Source: Isoptericola sp.
Lineage (GTDB): Bacteria > Actinomycetota > Actinomycetes > Actinomycetales > Cellulomonadaceae
Length of the DNA: 47,122 nucleotides
Direction of reading: 5' to 3'
Assembly: GCA_031180595.1 (NCBI GenBank)
Contig: JAPSLQ010000004.1
Span: 1 to 47,122, forward strand
In this document: positions 14,651 through 40,047 of the stretch, one piece after another
Numbering within the stretch: position 1 is the stretch's first letter
Layout: each line of letters starts with the position of its first letter
Translations under genes and position numbers: made by a program
Notes under the pieces: generated by a model
Databases searched by the model: none
Seen by the model: only the letters and a program-made list of their open reading frames with translations
Told to the model about the DNA's origin: nothing

Positions 14651-14656
14651 TAGGGT
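14651..14656 (+). promoter_or_regulatory. -10 hexamer of the thiO-thiS-thiG operon
   Basis: TAGGGT on the plus strand. It puts the transcript start near 14663, at the 5' edge of the TPP aptamer. It is 14 bases from the oppositely oriented thiE -10. Confidence 0.55.
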
Positions 14657-14663
14657 GGACCCC

Positions 14664-14745
14664 GCACGGGAGCCCCGGCCGGGGCTGAGAGGGCGCGGAG
14701 CGCCGACCGTCGAACCTGATCTGGGTCATGCCAGCGAAGGGAGCG
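14664..14745 (+). ncRNA. TPP riboswitch (THI element)
   Basis: All conserved blocks of the THI box appear in order: CGGGAGCC at the 5' side, the GCCCC/GGGGC stem, CTGAGAGG (14685-14692), GACC, AACCTGAT, CTGGGTCATGCCAGCG (14721-14736) and the closing AAGGGAG (14737-14743). Binding of thiamine pyrophosphate folds the aptamer and closes P1. The 3' conserved strand itself carries the Shine-Dalgarno sequence (AGGGAG, 6 bases before ATG 14750), so control is most simply by hiding the ribosome site of thiO. Confidence 0.96.
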
Positions 14746-14749
14746 CAGC

Positions 14750-15961
14750 ATGGAGACGTCGACCGGCTCGACGACCGACGTCGTCGTCGTGGGTGCCGGG
14801 ATCGTCGGCGCCGCGGTGGCGTGGCGTGCCGCGCGTGCGGGGCTCGAGGTCACCGTGCTGGACCCGGCGCCCGGTGACGGCGCCACGCGGGCGGCCGCAG
14901 GCATGCTCGCCCCGGTCAGCGAGACGTGGTTCGGCGAGGAGGCGGCGGTCCGGCTCGGCCTCGCCGGGCAGGCCGCGTGGCCCGGCTTCGCCGAGGAGCT
15001 GGCCGCCGAGACCGGGACGGACCCGGGGCTGCGGTCGACCGGCACGCTCGTCGTCGCCTACGACGCCGACGACGCCGCGCACCTGCGCCGCTGGCTCGCG
15101 CTGCACGCACGCTGGTCGCTCGGGTCGGTCGAGCTCGGCCCGGCCGAGGCCCGCCGGCGCGAGCCCTTGCTCGGGGCGCGCTCGAGCGGCGCCGCGTGGG
15201 TGCCGGACGACCACGTCGCGGACCCGCGCGCGACCCACGCCGCGCTCATGTCCGCCCTGCGCGCCCGCCGCGAGGCCTGCGTCGTGCGCCGGGCGGCCGC
15301 ACGCCTCGCGCTGGACGTGCGCGGCGCCGTCGCCGGCGTGGTCGACGACGCCGGGCGGACGCACCGGGCCGGTGCGGTCGTCCTCGCGTCGGGGTGGCGC
15401 GCGGCCGAGCTCGTGTCCGGCCTGCCCGTCGCGGTCCCGGTGCGGCCGGTGCGCGGCCAGACGCTGCGCCTCGACGCCGGACCCGAGGGGGCGCCCGCGC
15501 ACGTGGTGCGCGGCATCGTGCAGGGGCGGCCGGTGTACGTGGTGCCGCGGGCGCCCGGCACGGGGCGGGGCCCCGGCGCGACGCCCGAGCACCGCGAGGT
15601 CGTCGTCGGCGCGACCAGCGAGGAGGGGCCCGACGACCGCCGGGCCGCCGCCGGCGGGGTGTTCGCGCTCCTGCGGGACGCCCGCGCGCTGCTGCCCGCC
15701 CTGGACGAGGCCGCGCTCGTCGAGGCGACGCCGCGGGCACGGCCCGGGACGCCCGACAACCTCCCGCTCGTCGGCCCGACCGACGTGCCCGGGCTGCACC
15801 TGGCCGCCGGCCACTACCGCAACGGGGTGCTCCTCGCGCCCCTCACCGCCGAGGCCGTGGTCGCCGGGCTGGAGGGCGACGACCCGCCGCCCGCGCTCGC
15901 GGCCGCCGACCCGCGCCGCTTCGCGCCCGCGACCCCTCCGACCCCTCTGCCTGGAGCCTGA
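14750..15961 (+). CDS. thiO: Glycine oxidase ThiO
   Basis: 403 residues. This FAD-dependent D-amino-acid-oxidase-fold enzyme oxidises glycine to iminoglycine (dehydroglycine) for thiazole synthesis in aerobes. The dinucleotide-binding motif DVVVVGAGIVGAAVAWRAAR is at about 10-29, AAAGMLAPVSE at about 48, VRPVRGQTLRL mid-protein, and the C-terminal GHYRNGVLLAPLTAEAVV matches the family. The ATG 14750 follows the riboswitch Shine-Dalgarno sequence. It is first in thiO-thiS-thiG, 3 bases before thiS. No thiC or thiD lies in the window. Confidence 0.93.
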   Translation: METSTGSTTDVVVVGAGIVGAAVAWRAARAGLEVTVLDPAPGDGATRAAAGMLAPVSETWFGEEAAVRLGLAGQAAWPGFAEELAAETGTDPGLRSTGTLVVAYDADDAAHLRRWLALHARWSLGSVELGPAEARRREPLLGARSSGAAWVPDDHVADPRATHAALMSALRARREACVVRRAAARLALDVRGAVAGVVDDAGRTHRAGAVVLASGWRAAELVSGLPVAVPVRPVRGQTLRLDAGPEGAPAHVVRGIVQGRPVYVVPRAPGTGRGPGATPEHREVVVGATSEEGPDDRRAAAGGVFALLRDARALLPALDEAALVEATPRARPGTPDNLPLVGPTDVPGLHLAAGHYRNGVLLAPLTAEAVVAGLEGDDPPPALAAADPRRFAPATPPTPLPGA

Positions 15962-34363: not shown

Positions 34364-35028
34364 GCCCGACGCCGACCCTGCCCGTGCCCGTGGTGCTCGT
34401 GGACGACCACCACATGTTCCGCACCGGCGTGCGCGCGAGCCTCGACGAGCGCGTGACCGTGGTGGGGGAGGCCGCCGACGTCGACGAGGCGGTGGCGGTC
34501 GTGCACGAGCGGACCCCGCCAGTGGTGCTGCTCGACGTGCACCTGCCGGGAGGCAACGGGGGCGGCGGGGCCGAGGTGGTGCGGCGCTGCGCTGACCTCC
34601 TCGGCGCGACCCGCTTCCTGGCCCTGTCGGTGTCGGACGCCGCCGAGGACGTCGTGGCGGTCATCCGCTCCGGTGCCCGCGGGTACGTCACCAAGAACAT
34701 CTCGGGTCCGGACCTGTCGGCCGCCGTGGTGCGCGTCGCGGGCGGGGACGCGGTGTTCTCGCCGCGCCTCGCGGGGTTCGTGCTGGACGCGTTCGGCACG
34801 GCCGCCGGCGACGTCGCAGTCGCCGACGACGAGCTCGACCGGCTCTCGCGCCGCGAGCAGGAGGTCATGCGGCTCATCGCCCGCGGCTACTCCTACCGCG
34901 AGGTGGCGAGCGAGCTGTTCATCTCGATCAAGACGGTCGAGACCCACGTGTCCGCGGTGCTGCGCAAGCTCCAGCTCTCGAGCCGCTACGAGCTCACGCG
35001 GTGGGCCGCGGCTCGGCGCCTGCTCTGA
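34360..35028 (+). CDS. LuxR/NarL-family response regulator
   Basis: 222 residues. The receiver domain (about 9-130) has acidic Asp15/Asp16, phospho-acceptor Asp59 in VVLLDVHLPGG, and the late Lys in ARGYVTKNISGPDL. The C-terminal LuxR helix-turn-helix (about 155-222) reads LSRREQEVMRLIARGYSYRE, then VASELFISIKTVETHVSAVL. GTG 34360 is coupled to the kinase stop. It is the natural candidate to bind the CCCTGA repeat array upstream of its own operon and the pspC-like operon. Its last 35 bases overlap, antisense, the end of cbiX. Confidence 0.93.
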   Translation: MSPTPTLPVPVVLVDDHHMFRTGVRASLDERVTVVGEAADVDEAVAVVHERTPPVVLLDVHLPGGNGGGGAEVVRRCADLLGATRFLALSVSDAAEDVVAVIRSGARGYVTKNISGPDLSAAVVRVAGGDAVFSPRLAGFVLDAFGTAAGDVAVADDELDRLSRREQEVMRLIARGYSYREVASELFISIKTVETHVSAVLRKLQLSSRYELTRWAAARRLL

Positions 35029-35737
35029 CGCGGTACCGGTCGACGACGACGTCGACCAGCTCGGCCGGTGCCTCCTCGTCGGCCACGAGCAGCGGACGGG
35101 TCGTGACGTCGCCGCCGGCGCCGGCGGCCAGGTCGGCGAAGAAGCCGGGCGCGAGCAGGTACGACGCGACGACGACGCGCGCTCCCGGGTGCTCGGCGCG
35201 GACCGCGGCGACGACGTCGCGCAGCTGCGGGGTGGCGTTGGCGATGTACCCCACGCGCACGGGACGGCCGAGCCGGGACGCGAGCCGCTCGCCCGTGGCC
35301 TCGCAGTCGGCGACCGCCCGGGCGTCGCTCGAGCCCGCCGCCGCGAGCACGACGACGTCGCCGTCCGCGAGGCCCCCGGGCGGACCCGCCTCGCCGAGCC
35401 GCCGCTCGAGCACGTCGACGAGCCGGTCGTCCGGTCCCAGCGCGCCTCCGAGCGTGACGTCCGCCCCCGCAGCCACGGCGGCGTCGACGTCCTCGCGCAG
35501 GTCGACGTGCACGTGGTAGCCCGCCGAGAGGAGCAGCGGCACGACGACGGTCGCGCGACCGGCCAGCCCGGCCAGGCACGTCGGCACGTCGGGCCGCTGC
35601 ACGTCGACGAACCCTGCGTGCACGGACGTCTCGCCCTCGAGACGTGCGGCGACGGCGTCCACGAGCGTGGCGACGGCCCCGGCGCCGGCGGGGGAGGCCG
35701 TGCCGTGGGAGATCGCGAGCAGCGCGGGTCGTTCCAT
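34994..35737 (-). CDS. cbiX: Sirohydrochlorin chelatase-like protein (CbiX)
   Basis: 247 residues, the two-repeat long form. Each half carries a chelatase-type motif: LLAISHGTASPAGA (with the metal-site His10) and VVLAAAGSSDARAVAD, plus VVVPLLLSAGYHVHVDLRED (second active His region) and VVVASYLLAPGFF. It inserts Fe2+ into sirohydrochlorin to give siroheme for the sulfite reductase encoded upstream on the same strand. ATG 35737 is 7 bases after a -10 hexamer, so it can be transcribed separately from cysG, 56 bases away. The 3' end overlaps the response-regulator gene by 35 bases. Confidence 0.88.
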   Translation of the reverse strand: MERPALLAISHGTASPAGAGAVATLVDAVAARLEGETSVHAGFVDVQRPDVPTCLAGLAGRATVVVPLLLSAGYHVHVDLREDVDAAVAAGADVTLGGALGPDDRLVDVLERRLGEAGPPGGLADGDVVVLAAAGSSDARAVADCEATGERLASRLGRPVRVGYIANATPQLRDVVAAVRAEHPGARVVVASYLLAPGFFADLAAGAGGDVTTRPLLVADEEAPAELVDVVVDRYRVRAGAEPRPTA

Positions 35738-35744
35738 GCCGTCC

Positions 35745-35750
35745 ACCGTA
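35745..35750 (-). promoter_or_regulatory. -10 hexamer of cbiX
   Basis: TACGGT on the minus strand with 7 bases before ATG 35737 (leaderless layout). Confidence 0.55.
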
Positions 35751-35793
35751 CGACCGCCGTCCGTCGCCCCGGTTGCCGGCTCGTGAACCCAGG

Positions 35794-37071
35794 TCACGAC
35801 CGGCTCACGGCCACGTCCCGCCCGCTGTGAGCGGCCCACGCCGGGCTCAGCGTCACGACGTCGCCCACGACCGTCACGGCGGGCGCACGCACCCCGGCGG
35901 TCGCTGCGCGCCCGGCGATGTCGGCGAGCGTCCCGACGGTCACCCGCTGCCGCGGCCCGTAGCCGTCCTCGACCACGGCGGCCGGGGTCGACGGCGCGCG
36001 CCCGGCGGAGACGAGTGCGGCCGCGGTCGCGGCGAGCCGGGTGACGCCCATGAGCAGCACGAGCGTGTGGTCGGGGCCTGCGGGCACCTGCCCGACGTCG
36101 TCGTGCCCCGTGAGGACGGTGAACCCGCGCGCGACGCCGCGGTGCGTGACGGGGATCCCCACCGCCGCCGGCACCGACACGGCCGAGGTCACCCCGGGGA
36201 CGACCTCGACCTCGATGCCGTGCGCGCGGCAGGCCTCGAGCTCCTCGCCGCCGCGGCCGAACACGTACGGGTCGCCGCCCTTGAGCCGCACGACGTCGCG
36301 CCCCGCGAGCGCGTGCTCGACGAGCAGCGCCGAGATCCGCTCCTGCGGCACCGGGTGGTTGCCGGAGGTCTTGCCGACGTCGACCACCTCGACGTCGTCG
36401 GCCAGGTCGTCGAGCAGGGCGCGCGGCGCCAGCCGGTCGACCACGACGACGTCGGCCTGGGCGAGCAGCCGCCGACCGCGCGTCGTGACGAGGCCGGGGT
36501 CGCCCGGCCCGCCGCCGACGAGGGCGACCCGGCCGACGCGCGGGTCGCCGTCGGGCGCGTGCTCGCGCGGGCGCACGCGCCGCAGCGGCAGGTCGCCCGA
36601 CTCGAGCGCGGCGGCGACGGCGTCGCGCACGCGCTGCGCCCGGCGCGGGTCCCGTCCGGCCGTCACGGCCACGGTCACCTCGCCGTGCTCGCCCCCGGAC
36701 ACGACGGGGGTGCGCGCGACGGCGGGCACCCACGCCGTCGCGAGGCGCGCGTCGCCGGCGGTGACGCAGAAGACGCGGGCGGCCTCGGCGTCGGCGGCCA
36801 CGGCCGTGTCGGCCTCCGGGTCACCCGTCGCGGTGTGCGCGAGCCACGCGCCGTCGAGGTCGCCGGGCGCGTACGCACGCGCCCGGTGCTCGACGGCGCC
36901 GGTGCGGACGAGCTCGTCCAGTCCCGCGACCAGACCGGGTGCGACGAGGCGGACGCGGGCACCGGCGTCGAGGAGCCCGCGCACGCGGCGCAGGGCCACG
37001 GGACCGCCGCCCACGACCACGACCAGCCGACCCGCCAAGCGCAGGCCGAGCGGGTAGGTCTCGCTCGTCAT
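35794..37071 (-). CDS. cysG: Siroheme synthase: precorrin-2 dehydrogenase fused to uroporphyrinogen-III C-methyltransferase
   Basis: 425 residues. The N-terminal NAD-binding module (about 1-155; LVVVVGGGPVALRRVRGLL, then VFCVTAGDARLA with the catalytic-type Asp) oxidises precorrin-2. The C-terminal SUMT domain (about 180-420) has VALVGGGPGDPGLVTTRG, VRLKGGDPYVFGRGGEEL, VVPGVTSAVSVPAAVGIPVT and VLLMGVTRL, and methylates uroporphyrinogen III with SAM. The segment that carries Ser128 in the E. coli enzyme reads VTAGRDPR here, and a separate chelatase (CbiX) follows, so iron insertion may be left to CbiX (inference). ATG 37071 overlaps the cysH stop. Confidence 0.92.
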   Translation of the reverse strand: MTSETYPLGLRLAGRLVVVVGGGPVALRRVRGLLDAGARVRLVAPGLVAGLDELVRTGAVEHRARAYAPGDLDGAWLAHTATGDPEADTAVAADAEAARVFCVTAGDARLATAWVPAVARTPVVSGGEHGEVTVAVTAGRDPRRAQRVRDAVAAALESGDLPLRRVRPREHAPDGDPRVGRVALVGGGPGDPGLVTTRGRRLLAQADVVVVDRLAPRALLDDLADDVEVVDVGKTSGNHPVPQERISALLVEHALAGRDVVRLKGGDPYVFGRGGEELEACRAHGIEVEVVPGVTSAVSVPAAVGIPVTHRGVARGFTVLTGHDDVGQVPAGPDHTLVLLMGVTRLAATAAALVSAGRAPSTPAAVVEDGYGPRQRVTVGTLADIAGRAATAGVRAPAVTVVGDVVTLSPAWAAHSGRDVAVSRS

Positions 37072-37985
37072 ACGTGCAGCCCGCACTCGACCTTGTCGAG
37101 GCCCGCCCAGCGTCCGGCGCGCGGGTCCTCGCCCGGCGCGACGCGACGGGTGCAGGGCGCGCAGCCGATCGACGGGTAGCCGTCGTTCAGCAACGGGTTC
37201 ACCACCAGCCGGTGGCGCAGCGCGAACGACACGAGGTCGTCGTCGCTCCACGCGGCGATGGGGTTGATCTTGACCAGGTTGTTGGACGAGTCCCAGGTGA
37301 CGAGCGGGGCGTGCCGGCGCGTCGCGGAGTCACCGCGGCGCAGGCCGGTGGCCCAGGCCTCGTACCCGGCGAGCGCCTCGCGCATGGGCTCGACCTTGCG
37401 CATGCGGCAGCAGGACTCGGCGTCGCGCTCGAACAGGTCCGGGCCGTGCACGGCGTCCTGCTGGGCCACCGTGAGGCGCGGGCGCACGTCCACGACCGTC
37501 ACGTCGAGCTCGTGCTCGACGGCGGCGCGCGTCCCGAGCGTCTCGGCGAAGTGGTAGCCGGTGTCGCCGAAGAGGACGTCGACCCACCGGAGCTGCCGGC
37601 TCACCAGGTAGGAGAGCACCGAGTCGGTCATCGAGGACGCGACCGCGAGGCCGTCGCCGAACTCGCGCACCGCCCAGGCGATGACCTCCTCGGCCGTCGC
37701 CTCGTCGGCCGAGCCGGGGCCCGAGCCGCCGAGCTCCTCCTGGCCGCGGCGCGCGACCTCCCACAGCTCGGCGTCGGAGCGGCGCCGCCGCGTCACGCCT
37801 GCGAGCCGGGCGCGGCGCTCGGCGCGGGCCCGCTCGCGTGCCGCGGCACGTTCCCGCGCCTCGGCCGCGGCCCCCACCAGCGGCGACGCCAGGGCGGAGC
37901 GGTCCGGTGCGGCCGGGCCGGCCGGCGTCCCCGGCGCGGAGCCGGCGTTGGGGCCGACGCCGAGGGAGACGGACACCGCGGTCAT
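37068..37985 (-). CDS. cysH: Adenylyl-sulfate (APS-type) reductase
   Basis: 305 residues. It reduces activated sulfate to sulfite. The first 70 or so residues are a low-complexity Ala/Arg-rich extension. The PP-loop-type domain follows (VASSMTDSVLSYL; DVLFGDTGYHFAETLGTR). The four iron-sulfur cysteines of the APS-type enzyme are present as CCRMRKVEP and CAPCTRRV, and the catalytic C-terminal Cys is in VECGLHV. The Fe-S cluster pattern argues for APS rather than PAPS as substrate. The ATGA overlaps on both sides (sulfite reductase and cysG) tie it into one operon. Confidence 0.92.
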   Translation of the reverse strand: MTAVSVSLGVGPNAGSAPGTPAGPAAPDRSALASPLVGAAAEARERAAARERARAERRARLAGVTRRRRSDAELWEVARRGQEELGGSGPGSADEATAEEVIAWAVREFGDGLAVASSMTDSVLSYLVSRQLRWVDVLFGDTGYHFAETLGTRAAVEHELDVTVVDVRPRLTVAQQDAVHGPDLFERDAESCCRMRKVEPMREALAGYEAWATGLRRGDSATRRHAPLVTWDSSNNLVKINPIAAWSDDDLVSFALRHRLVVNPLLNDGYPSIGCAPCTRRVAPGEDPRAGRWAGLDKVECGLHV

Positions 37986-39715
37986 CGGAGGGCCTCCTCG
38001 TCGGCGCGGTGGGCCCACTCGGCGAACGACTCGCCCTCGGCCCGCTCGGCGTCGAACTGCCGCACGACGCGCTCGACGTAGTCCGCGAGACCGTCCGCGG
38101 TGACCTTGAGCCCGCGCACCGTGCGGCCCAGGCCGCCCTCGGCGCGCTCGGCCGAGGCGAGGCCGCCGCCGAGGTGCACCTGGAAGCCGGGGACCTGCTC
38201 GCCGTCGTCGTCCATGACGATCTGGCCCTTGAGCCCGATGTCCGCCGTCTGGATGCGCGCGCACGAGTTGGGGCACCCGTTGACGTTGAGCGTGACCGGC
38301 GGCAGGTCGGTCAGGTCGCCGAGCCGCTCCTCGAGCCGGGTGATCGCGGCCGTGGCCGTGGCCTTCGTCTCGACGATCGCCAGCTTGCAGAACTCGATGC
38401 CGGTGCACGCGATGGTGTTGCGGCGGAAGAGGCTCGGGCGCGTCTGCAGGCCGAGGGCGTCCAGGCCGGCGACGAGCGGCTCGACGCGGTCCGGCGCGAC
38501 GTCGAGCACGAGCAGCTTCTGGTACGGGGTCAGCCGCACCCGGTGCGAGCCGTGCTCCTCGGCGAGGTCAGCGACCCCGGCGAGGACCTCCGCCGACACG
38601 CGGCCGACCGCGGGGGAGGCGCCGACGTAGAAGCGGCCGTCCTTCTGCTCGTGCACGCCGACGTGGTCGCCCGGGACCGGCGGGATCGGAGCGGCCGGGC
38701 CGTCGGGGAGCGGGTACCCGAGGTACTCGCTCTCGAGGACCTCGCGGAACCTCTCCACGCCCCAGTCGGCCAGCAGGAACTTCAGGCGCGCCTTGTTGCG
38801 CAGCCGCCGGTAGCCGTAGTCGCGGAAGATCTGCACGACGCCGTGCCAGACGTCGGGCGCCTGCTCCTGGGTGACGAAGACGCCGAGACGCTCCGCCAGG
38901 CGCGGCGCCGTCGACAGCCCACCGCCGACCCACAGGTCGTACCCGACGCCGAGCTCGGGGTGCTCCACCGCGACGAACGCGACGTCGTTGATCTCGTGCA
39001 CGACGTCGAGGCTCGGGTGGCCGGTGACCGCCGACTTGAACTTGCGCGGCAGGTTCGCGAGCGACGGGTCGCCGATGTACCGCTCCTGGATGGTCTCGAT
39101 GACCGGCGTCGGGTCGATGAGCTCGTCCTTGGCGACGCCCGCCACGGGGGAGCCGAGGATGACGCGCGGCACGTCGCCGCAGGCCTCGGTCGTCGACAGG
39201 CCCACCGCCTCGAGGCGCCGCCAGATCTCCGGGACGTCCTCGACCCGGACCCAGTGCAGCTGGATGTTCTGTCGGTCGGTGATGTCCGCGGTGCCGCGCG
39301 CGAACTCCTCGCTGATGCCCGCGATCACCCGCAGCTGGTCGGTGCTCAGGGCGCCGCCGTCGATCCGGACCCGCAGCATGAAGTAGCGGTCCTCGAGCTC
39401 GTGGGGCTCGAGCGTGGCGGTGCGGCCGCCGTCGATCCCGGGCTTGCGCTGGGTGTACAGGCCCCACCAGCGGAACCGCCCGTGGAGGTCGTCGCCGGGG
39501 ATGGAGTCGAAGCCCTCGACGGCGTAGGTGGACTCGATCCGCTCCCGCACGGCGAGCGGGTCCGACTCGGCCTTGAACTCCTCGTTGTGGTTCAGCGGCG
39601 TCGTCCCGTCGACCTTCCACTGGCCGTTGGGCTTGGCGGCGCGGGGCGGGCGGACGGGGCGGGTGGGGCGCTCGGCGGTCGCCGTCGGCGCGGGGGCGGT
39701 GGTCTGCGTCGTCAT
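37982..39715 (-). CDS. Siroheme and 4Fe-4S sulfite (nitrite/sulfite) reductase, SirA/NirA type
   Basis: 577 residues. It reduces sulfite to sulfide with electrons from ferredoxin. The two ferredoxin-like half domains and the cluster motifs ACTGIEFCKLA and NVNGCPNSCARIQ are intact. Tyr87 (RWWGLYTQRK) and Cys179 (STTEACGDVPR) are 92 residues apart, exactly as Tyr69 and Cys161 of the mycobacterial enzyme, which form a covalent link beside the siroheme. Position in the operon with cysH, cysG and cbiX favours sulfite over nitrite as substrate. ATG 39715 is preceded by GAGGAA 8 bases upstream, next to an attenuator-type stem. Confidence 0.93.
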   Translation of the reverse strand: MTTQTTAPAPTATAERPTRPVRPPRAAKPNGQWKVDGTTPLNHNEEFKAESDPLAVRERIESTYAVEGFDSIPGDDLHGRFRWWGLYTQRKPGIDGGRTATLEPHELEDRYFMLRVRIDGGALSTDQLRVIAGISEEFARGTADITDRQNIQLHWVRVEDVPEIWRRLEAVGLSTTEACGDVPRVILGSPVAGVAKDELIDPTPVIETIQERYIGDPSLANLPRKFKSAVTGHPSLDVVHEINDVAFVAVEHPELGVGYDLWVGGGLSTAPRLAERLGVFVTQEQAPDVWHGVVQIFRDYGYRRLRNKARLKFLLADWGVERFREVLESEYLGYPLPDGPAAPIPPVPGDHVGVHEQKDGRFYVGASPAVGRVSAEVLAGVADLAEEHGSHRVRLTPYQKLLVLDVAPDRVEPLVAGLDALGLQTRPSLFRRNTIACTGIEFCKLAIVETKATATAAITRLEERLGDLTDLPPVTLNVNGCPNSCARIQTADIGLKGQIVMDDDGEQVPGFQVHLGGGLASAERAEGGLGRTVRGLKVTADGLADYVERVVRQFDAERAEGESFAEWAHRADEEALR

Positions 39716-39731
39716 CGGGGGAGTTCCTCGG

Positions 39732-39791
39732 GGTCCTCGGGAGGGCGGGGACGCGCGACGACGAGTGGCTCAGCGGGGTGGGCCGAGGACC
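39732..39791 (-). promoter_or_regulatory. Attenuator-like stem between the Cys leader and the sulfite reductase gene
   Basis: CCGAGGACC (39783-39791, plus-strand reading) and GGTCCTCGG (39732-39740) form a perfect 9-bp stem with a 42-base loop. In the minus-strand mRNA the 3' arm ends 2 bases before the GAGGAA ribosome site (39724-39729). A second CCGAGGA copy covers that site, so the 5' arm could also pair with the Shine-Dalgarno itself. There is no T tract, so translational rather than intrinsic-terminator control seems likelier. Confidence 0.5.
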
Positions 39792-39849
39792 GACGGCGCG
39801 CGCCGGTGCTCAGGTCCGCCGGAGCGGTGGGGGGCTGAGGTGGGCGCGG

Positions 39850-39942
39850 TCAGCGACAGCAGCACAGACAGCTGCACATGCACGTGCACGCCGGCATCCC
39901 GTGACGGTTCGTCACGAGGCTCAGGTGCGCGGCCGTGGTCAT
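39850..39942 (-). CDS. Cysteine-rich leader peptide of the sulfur-assimilation operon
   Basis: 30 residues starting MTTAAHLSLVTNRHGMPA. Seven of the last twelve residues are Cys (positions 19, 21, 23, 25, 27, 28, 29), including a Cys-Cys-Cys run, and then Arg and stop. The -10 hexamer ends 7 bases before ATG 39942, so the transcript is probably leaderless. The stop lies 134 bases before the sulfite reductase start. Short, leaderless, Cys-ending uORFs ahead of sulfur genes are known in actinobacteria as cysteine attenuators: ribosome stalling at low Cys-tRNA changes folding of the mRNA and opens the downstream gene. The peptide itself probably has no separate function. Confidence 0.85.
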   Translation of the reverse strand: MTTAAHLSLVTNRHGMPACTCMCSCLCCCR

Positions 39943-39949
39943 GGCGACG

Positions 39950-39955
39950 AAGGTA
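39950..39955 (-). promoter_or_regulatory. -10 hexamer of the sulfur-assimilation operon and Cys leader
   Basis: TACCTT on the minus strand with 7 bases before ATG 39942. The next 105 bases to the divergent ATG at 40061 carry the promoter regions of both directions and nothing else I recognise. Confidence 0.6.
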
Positions 39956-40047
39956 TCCCGGGGTGGTGGTCCGGCGAAACCGCGTGTCCGCATGCTGGGA
40001 CCACGATGTGGGACGAACGGTGTCGGGCCACGTGAGAGGCCCGCGGC

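Follow-up and report, generated by a model that had tools for sequence, protein, structure and literature searches.

The window examined here, a stretch of 47,122 nucleotides from an Isoptericola sp. contig, carries on its reverse strand an operon that opens with sir (37982 to 39715, ATG at 39715), a gene of the sulfite/nitrite reductase family that NCBIfam models of nitrite and sulfite reductases match, in each case below the model's own cut-off. It is followed on the same strand by the PAPS/APS reductase gene cysH (37068 to 37985, the start being inferred from an ATGA overlap with the end of sir) and by a cysG-like siroheme synthase together with an ORF in another frame that weakly matches sirohydrochlorin chelatase (34994 to 37251, starts not fixed). 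Judging by the profile matches and by general knowledge, these genes serve the assimilation of sulfate to cysteine. In one genome (G016) the sir homologue has a single in-frame TAG.

Upstream of sir, and also on the reverse strand, lies a uORF of 30 codons plus TGA (39850 to 39942) that encodes the peptide MTTAAHLSLVTNRHGMPACTCMCSCLCCCR, with Cys at codons 19, 21, 23, 25, 27, 28 and 29 (39856 to 39888). The first-pass annotation had described a uORF of this length with seven Cys among its last twelve codons and a -10 hexamer 7 bases 5′ of its ATG, and both are present, the hexamer being TACCTT, of the TANNNT type (39950 to 39955, reverse strand). Given this spacing a leaderless transcript is expected, which would start at the ATG of the uORF, and in 62 of the 65 loci with a candidate leader TANNNT lies 5–9 nt upstream of where the leader starts, nearly always at 7 nt. 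No sigma-70 consensus pair was found in the region upstream of the uORF. Some 35 nt further upstream (39974-39981, reverse strand) lies a GGTTTCGC-like block that is common to many genomes of the window's genus, a possible -35 element or operator. The uORF peptide had no match among the NCBIfam and Pfam profiles; it is unmatched by NF042936 (the Ms4527A family) and has neither the HVDL motif nor a profile match of NF042934 (cis_reg_atten), and the peptides of five relatives were without a leader-family match as well. An Rfam scan found no element at the leader locus, and the TPP riboswitch that it placed in the window, with a score above the Rfam gathering cut-off, is elsewhere (14656-14759, forward strand).

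Upstream regions of sir were gathered from a search of the family (sir in 116 of 150 genomes), from 80 named contigs and from later additions. A leader was counted when TANNNT lay 6–8 nt before an ATG or GTG opening an ORF of 12–60 codons with at least three Cys in its last 14 residues. Such leaders stand 5′ of sir at 105 of 218 loci (loci overlap between the sources), as against 1 of 218 for the antisense strand and about none in shuffled sequence, and because of this conservation we take the uORF to be real; with each sir locus counted once within the GTDB family, the number is 78 of 120. Labelling genera as g1 (the window's genus), g8 (Cellulosimicrobium-like), g23 (Oerskovia-like) and further g numbers for the rest, the leader is found in 17 of the 18 g1 loci, the 18th stretch starting inside the leader's last codons, and in every locus of g7 (13/13), g8 (16/16), g23 (7/7), g20 (4/4) and g24 (4/4). 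The strict rule found none in g17 (0/7), g21 (0/13), g10 (0/5) or g15 (0/4); leaders whose Cys lie further from the stop are present at two g15 loci and one g3 locus. Three loci (L010, L017 and L026) have the Cys codons in mid-leader and a stop further downstream, within the spacer. Carriers among the named loci, 9 of 80, are Promicromonospora, Oerskovia, two Sanguibacter, two Cellulosimicrobium, Isoptericola, Cellulomonas bogoriensis and one MAG. Counting back from the stop, Cys has a genus-mean frequency of 0.80, 0.78 and 0.63 at the second, third and fourth positions and of at most 0.33 from the fifth position on, and the last two or three Cys codons are likely the regulatory ones. Conservation of the ORF, of the -10 spacing and of the near-stop Cys codons across genera supports the earlier assignment of the uORF to the leaderless, Cys-ending attenuators. 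In the window's own genome, a pattern for poly-Cys ends had 94 matches, compared with 146 for the reversed control pattern.

Codons 9–15 of the uORF are predicted to form a hairpin, P0 (CUCGUGACG-AAC-CGUCACGGG, 39898 to 39918, reverse strand), both sides of which change together in relatives: CTCACGAC/GTCGTGAG, CTCGCGAC/GTCGCGAG, GATGTGACG/CGTCACATC and, in one relative, CCCACGGCC/GGCCGTGGG. GTG/CAC is exchanged for ACG/CGT or GCG/CGC and CTC/GAG for GAT/ATC, and the peptide over P0 shifts accordingly from LVTxRH to LTTTRR, LATRRE, DVTMRHI or PTAVGRG. A plain sequence alignment of 48 distinct leaders, all starting MTT or MTK (L032 left out, L018 and L019 included), has 89.7% of its P0 cells paired and two-sided changes in 7 of the 9 pairs, with 32 two-sided-change cells as opposed to 7.6 ± 2.1 after shuffling (0 of 500 shuffles as high). 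Its covariation score is 0.279, against 0.137 ± 0.012 for shuffles and at most 0.103 for slid partners, and on 11 hand-picked leaders, three of them from g1, the score is 0.440 against 0.193 ± 0.034. Leaders with other starts, namely those of g6, g9, g11, g14, g18, g25 and three of the four of g24, fall outside this set. A model of P0 finds 59 of the 150 genomes at E ≤ 5e-6, in one place each and always at the sir leader, many of these genomes being also in the model's own alignment. Weaker matches extend to 92 of 150 genomes at E 0.01 and are mostly unexplained, two of the six inspected being Cys leaders. The window's own genome holds one copy (2.2e-13, the next match at 0.015), and the next five places there have no Cys-ending ORF. 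On this comparative evidence P0 is the firmest new result, and the start of the uORF is, as the paired substitutions indicate, shaped by a conserved RNA hairpin and not by the encoded peptide. Standing 24 nt past the predicted leaderless start, P0 might aid ribosome loading or cause RNA polymerase to pause until the first ribosome, which is a guess.

Between the uORF and sir, the perfect 9-bp stem reported earlier beside the sir ribosome site is indeed there, with its 5′ arm GGTCCTCGG at 39783 to 39791 and its 3′ arm CCGAGGACC at 39732 to 39740 (reverse strand, as are all features that follow). A second CCGAGGA (39725 to 39731) overlaps the ribosome site as described, containing the sir SD, GAGGA, at 39729-39725, 9 nt before the ATG. 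The 5′ arm had been credited with two possible partners; both exist, and a further one, GCTGAG, lies at 39774-39769. Two other structures can be drawn. P1 has its 5′ side directly after the uORF stop (39835 to 39848, made up of CGCGCC at 39848-39843 and CTCAG at 39839-39835) and its 3′ side at 39799 to 39813 (CTGAG at 39813-39809 and GGCGCG at 39804-39799). GGCGCG is shared with the outer arm of a long, interrupted hairpin that we call the rod (39750 to 39804; 5′ arm 39804-39782, loop 39781-39775, 3′ arm 39774-39750), which is the proposed ON structure and whose 5′ arm also includes the 5′ arm of the SD stem. The reported absence of a T tract is borne out, with no terminator-like site between 39600 and 40100, and the combination of a GC hairpin and a T tract that marks an intrinsic terminator is missing at the leader. 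From the stop codon to the sir AUG and with no ribosome present, the minimum-energy fold of the window contains P1 and the SD stem, and the whole window leader is no more stable than its shuffles (z −0.63).

Comparative folding was carried out on an alignment of 31 sequences, drawn from 59 distinct regions after merging identical ones and all of them g1, g8/g12 or Oerskovia-like g23. The outer helix of P1, CGCGCC/GGCGCG, is paired in 31 of 31 yet invariant, and in other genera P1 does only slightly better than shuffled sequence (mean z −1.0 to −1.2). The rod has 97.8% of its cells paired on this plain alignment and two-sided changes in only 2 of 20 pairs, a level equalled in 56 of 500 shuffles, and sliding the partners by −3 gives a higher score (0.128 against 0.107). 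On a model-fitted alignment of 46, whose sources were chosen because they match the rod model, 10 of 19 pairs show two-sided changes (25 cells compared with 3.4 ± 1.9) and the score is 0.190, slid partners reaching at most 0.101, though such an alignment leans towards its structure. A rod model built from the 31 sequences also finds the element, mostly as the stretch from stop codon to ATG, in g3, g11, g24 and g25 at E 4e-5 to 0.03; among the 94 sources searched there were 36 matches up to E 1, several at chance level, and the window's own genome has one copy, the next place having E 1.7. Folding of the pooled alignment gave z −3.3, with none of 200 column shuffles as good; the excess of consensus structure is absent in g7 (z +0.7, +0.5) and weak in g1 alone (−0.3, −0.5). 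Single spacers fold with a mean z of −1.2 in g1, −1.8 to −2.7 in g8, g12, g20, g23 and g24, and +0.67 in g7. Crude duplex z-scores for P1, the rod and the SD pairing gave no overall signal (SD mean +0.49 over 72). The spacer of one g1 member (L127) reads GGCCGGTGGCC instead of GGTCCTCGGCC, a change that disrupts the tip of the rod as well as the SD stem.

Judged from these comparisons, the hairpins P0 and rod are the best-conserved structures of the leader, ahead of the 9-bp SD stem. Pairing of that stem is kept in 80.4% of cells among the 31 relatives, with no two-sided change, and its outer pairs fail in 11 to 15 of the 31; the stem does not covary. One A/G column of the 5′ arm keeps rod pairing in 31 of 31 and loses SD-stem pairing in 15 of 31. 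For the window sequence, shuffling seldom produces so long a helix between the 5′ arm and the 3′ tail (p ~0.01, duplex z −2.9), and complementarity is above chance in 9 of the 18 g1 rows (z −2.3 to −3.5), with z −0.1 to −2.1 in g8. Rows of g11, g24 and g25 do not exceed chance, nor do most Oerskovia-like ones (z −0.2 to −1.5), and a wider duplex test for the SD stem gave no excess (genus mean z +1.3).

Ribosome occupancy was imitated by masking the 5′ part of the spacer. For g1 and for g8, RNAalifold predicts P1 in RNA that begins with the stop codon, and trimming 17 nt from that point on makes it predict the rod; the pooled alignment yields the rod whether or not this 5′ part is kept. Masking to stop+14 raises the expected number of rod pairs from 4.8 to 10.4 in g1 (9.1 already at stop+4), from 14.3 to 20.0 in g24 and from 11.2 to 18.3 in g20, with no rise in g23 (10.9 to 8.6) or g7 (8.5 to 7.9). 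With the same masking and the RNA ending at AUG+12, the unpaired probability of the SD region in g1 goes from 0.39 to 0.47 and is up in 17 of 17, counts in which the members are related and not independent. The predicted opening is less uniform in g8 (10 of 16 up and 1 down at AUG+12; 5 up and 4 down at AUG+3), shows little or no clear change in g23, g24 and g20, and in g7 is mostly reversed in nascent RNA. It nearly disappears when 36 nt of sir coding RNA are included, and SD-opening energies under progressive 5′ masking are flat. Predicted SD release is clearly supported in the window's genus only. Translational control of the operon, which the first-pass annotation favoured, fits the missing T tract and the g1 folding; as the predicted effect nearly vanishes with sir coding RNA present, it is a possible and not an established output.

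With the ribosome edge taken as 13 nt past the start of the A-site codon, the footprint edges for stalling on the seven Cys codons run from −26 to +4 relative to the stop. Only Cys 28 and Cys 29 reach past it, by 1 and 4 nt (three codons would do so with a slightly longer footprint), and at most half of CGCGCC is covered; CTCAG never is, with a 13-nt lead. The first-pass annotation had stalling at low Cys-tRNA keep the ribosome site open. The 5′ arm of the SD stem begins 59 nt past the stop, beyond the footprint, which makes direct occlusion of the stem unlikely and means that a stalled ribosome must act by relay. We think it probable that the leader attenuates the sir operon in response to cysteine by ribosome stalling, through a relay in which RNA helices compete with one another, a reading that draws on the uORF, the -10 spacing, the terminal Cys codons, P0 and the rod as compared among relatives. 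In this way the leader would very probably allow sulfur assimilation to be turned on when the cell is short of cysteine. When charged Cys-tRNA is plentiful, the ribosome would complete the uORF and depart, CGCGCC...CTCAG would pair with CTGAG...GGCGCG to form P1, and with the rod thus blocked GGTCCTCGG would be free to pair with CCGAGGACC and the SD region. When Cys-tRNA is scarce, the ribosome would stall on the last Cys codons, reach into CGCGCC and weaken P1, so that the rod could form between GGCGCGCG with the bases beneath and CGCGCGTC with those adjoining, leaving the SD open. Alternatively, stalling could let CTGAG pair with CTCGG, again with the SD open.

The logic resembles that of ermC-type attenuators, in which a drug-bound ribosome stalls over segment 1, the other segments re-pair and the SD is freed. 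The four-segment arrangement is alike, and the RNAalifold results for g1 and g8, together with the pair probabilities, predict mutually exclusive helices, one of them favoured on covering the 5′ segment. Unlike ermC, the trigger here would be amino-acid starvation, the start is predicted to be leaderless, and there is the extra hairpin P0.

Other readings of the same leader have to be weighed against this relay. In the simplest, plain translational attenuation, the SD is hidden by nothing but the 9-bp stem, whose formation a stalled ribosome blocks directly. The stem is perfect in the window, exceeds chance in half of the g1 rows and belongs to the minimum-energy fold of the ribosome-free nascent RNA, and a translational mode is cited for M. 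smegmatis cysteine genes in PMC13236596. We nevertheless hold this reading to be quite unlikely, since the 5′ arm lies outside the reach of the ribosome, the stem does not covary and loses its outer pairs as noted above, and its complementarity is at chance level in the Oerskovia-like genus, g11, g24 and g25. Less remote, if still rather doubtful, is that the P1/rod switch governs Rho-dependent termination in the C-rich spacer and not access to the SD. This would suit the missing intrinsic terminator, a spacer that is 53% C and 27% G, and the weak support for SD exposure outside the window's genus, and such a mode was proposed for mycobacterial cys leaders in 2005 (PMC1262725, in the part consulted). 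Against it, the opening 120 nt of sir show almost the same excess of C over G (46% to 31%, averaged over 75 loci, rows with a short 5′ part, mostly g1, having been dropped), so composition does not single out the spacer as a Rho site, and the mycobacterial work is cited as translational in PMC13236596.

A conserved leader could also carry RNA structures that serve mRNA stability or leaderless initiation alone, with no cysteine switching. P0 is placed where 70S loading on a leaderless start could benefit, and the structures are kept even where SD pairing is not. Against this account stand the Cys codons fixed near the stop across genera and the sulfate-assimilation genes downstream, and we regard it as very improbable. 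The relay of competing helices remains our preferred reading.

Leaders at the same place are found outside the family. From 157 other genomes of the class with sir we sampled 69 (29 best-scoring and 40 hand-picked), of which 67 were usable, and an HVDL-type leader (NCBIfam NF042934 and NF042936) precedes sir in 52 of these 67 loci (L237-L296) and in 1 of 67 on the antisense strand. Since this leader is so common before sir in the class sample, a sir leader there seems ancestral. Within the GTDB family the HVDL motif was found at 0 of 120 sir loci, and the class-wide HVDL leaders gave no consensus hairpin. The window's leader is thus like NF042934 in its place before sir and differs in that the motif is absent from the family and the block LVTxRH is kept here as an RNA palindrome. 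We put forward, tentatively and with less confidence than the relay itself, a fuller version in which LVTxRH(E/G) would not be selected as peptide at all and would be the translation of the palindrome P0, a hairpin serving synchronisation or loading on a transcript without a leader; P0, P1 and the rod would make up a complete trp-like relay with SD access as its output, and an older HVDL leader would have been replaced in this lineage at the same operon.

Cys-ending leaders also occur in 6 of 32 regions upstream of a cystine-transporter-like gene across the family, in g21, g25, g9 and g14 (L315, L318, L319, L322, L326 and L328); the best NCBIfam match of the gene behind them is a cystine-binding protein, below the model's cut-off. 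In two g21 genomes, which have no sir leader, the Cys-ending leader before the cystine-binding-protein-like gene contains a P0-like palindrome, MTSAPVHHATTVACRRCCRR. The window genome's own cystine-transporter-like gene has no Cys-ending leader upstream.

Canestrari (2020) reportedly showed cysteine-responsive leaderless uORFs in mycobacteria. That work is cited in PMC13236596, PMC9094748 and PMC9031893. Leaderless polycysteine small ORFs acting as attenuators in mycobacteria, one of them before nirA/Msmeg_4527, are also described by Shell (2015, PMC4633059, in the sections seen), and this small ORF gives the pairing of gene and leader a precedent. The window's leader shares with the mycobacterial ones the uORF, here predicted to be leaderless, the Cys codons and the cysteine-metabolism operon, nirA being the same kind of gene as sir, and as in a polycysteine attenuator the uORF ends in conserved Cys codons ahead of a gene of cysteine metabolism. 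It departs from them in a peptide outside NF042936 and in P0 and the P1/rod relay, which the sections of PMC4633059 seen do not describe. Cys leader peptides were likewise predicted before cys operons of Mycobacterium and Propionibacterium acnes in the available part of PMC1262725; they too have a Cys run near the stop and no terminator. There, as far as that part goes, no conserved terminator-capable hairpin is given and the mode is left open, whereas here P0 and, on the fitted alignment, the rod covary. A literature search at listing level found no hairpin or Cys leader described in this family.

These results add a further lineage to those with leaderless Cys uORFs, its peptide belonging to none of the known leader families, and give covariation evidence for RNA parts of such a leader, suggesting how a stalled ribosome may act on pairing about 60 nt away. 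They are also a warning that what looks like a conserved motif of a leader peptide can in fact be an RNA hairpin, a point to bear in mind when small ORFs are annotated.
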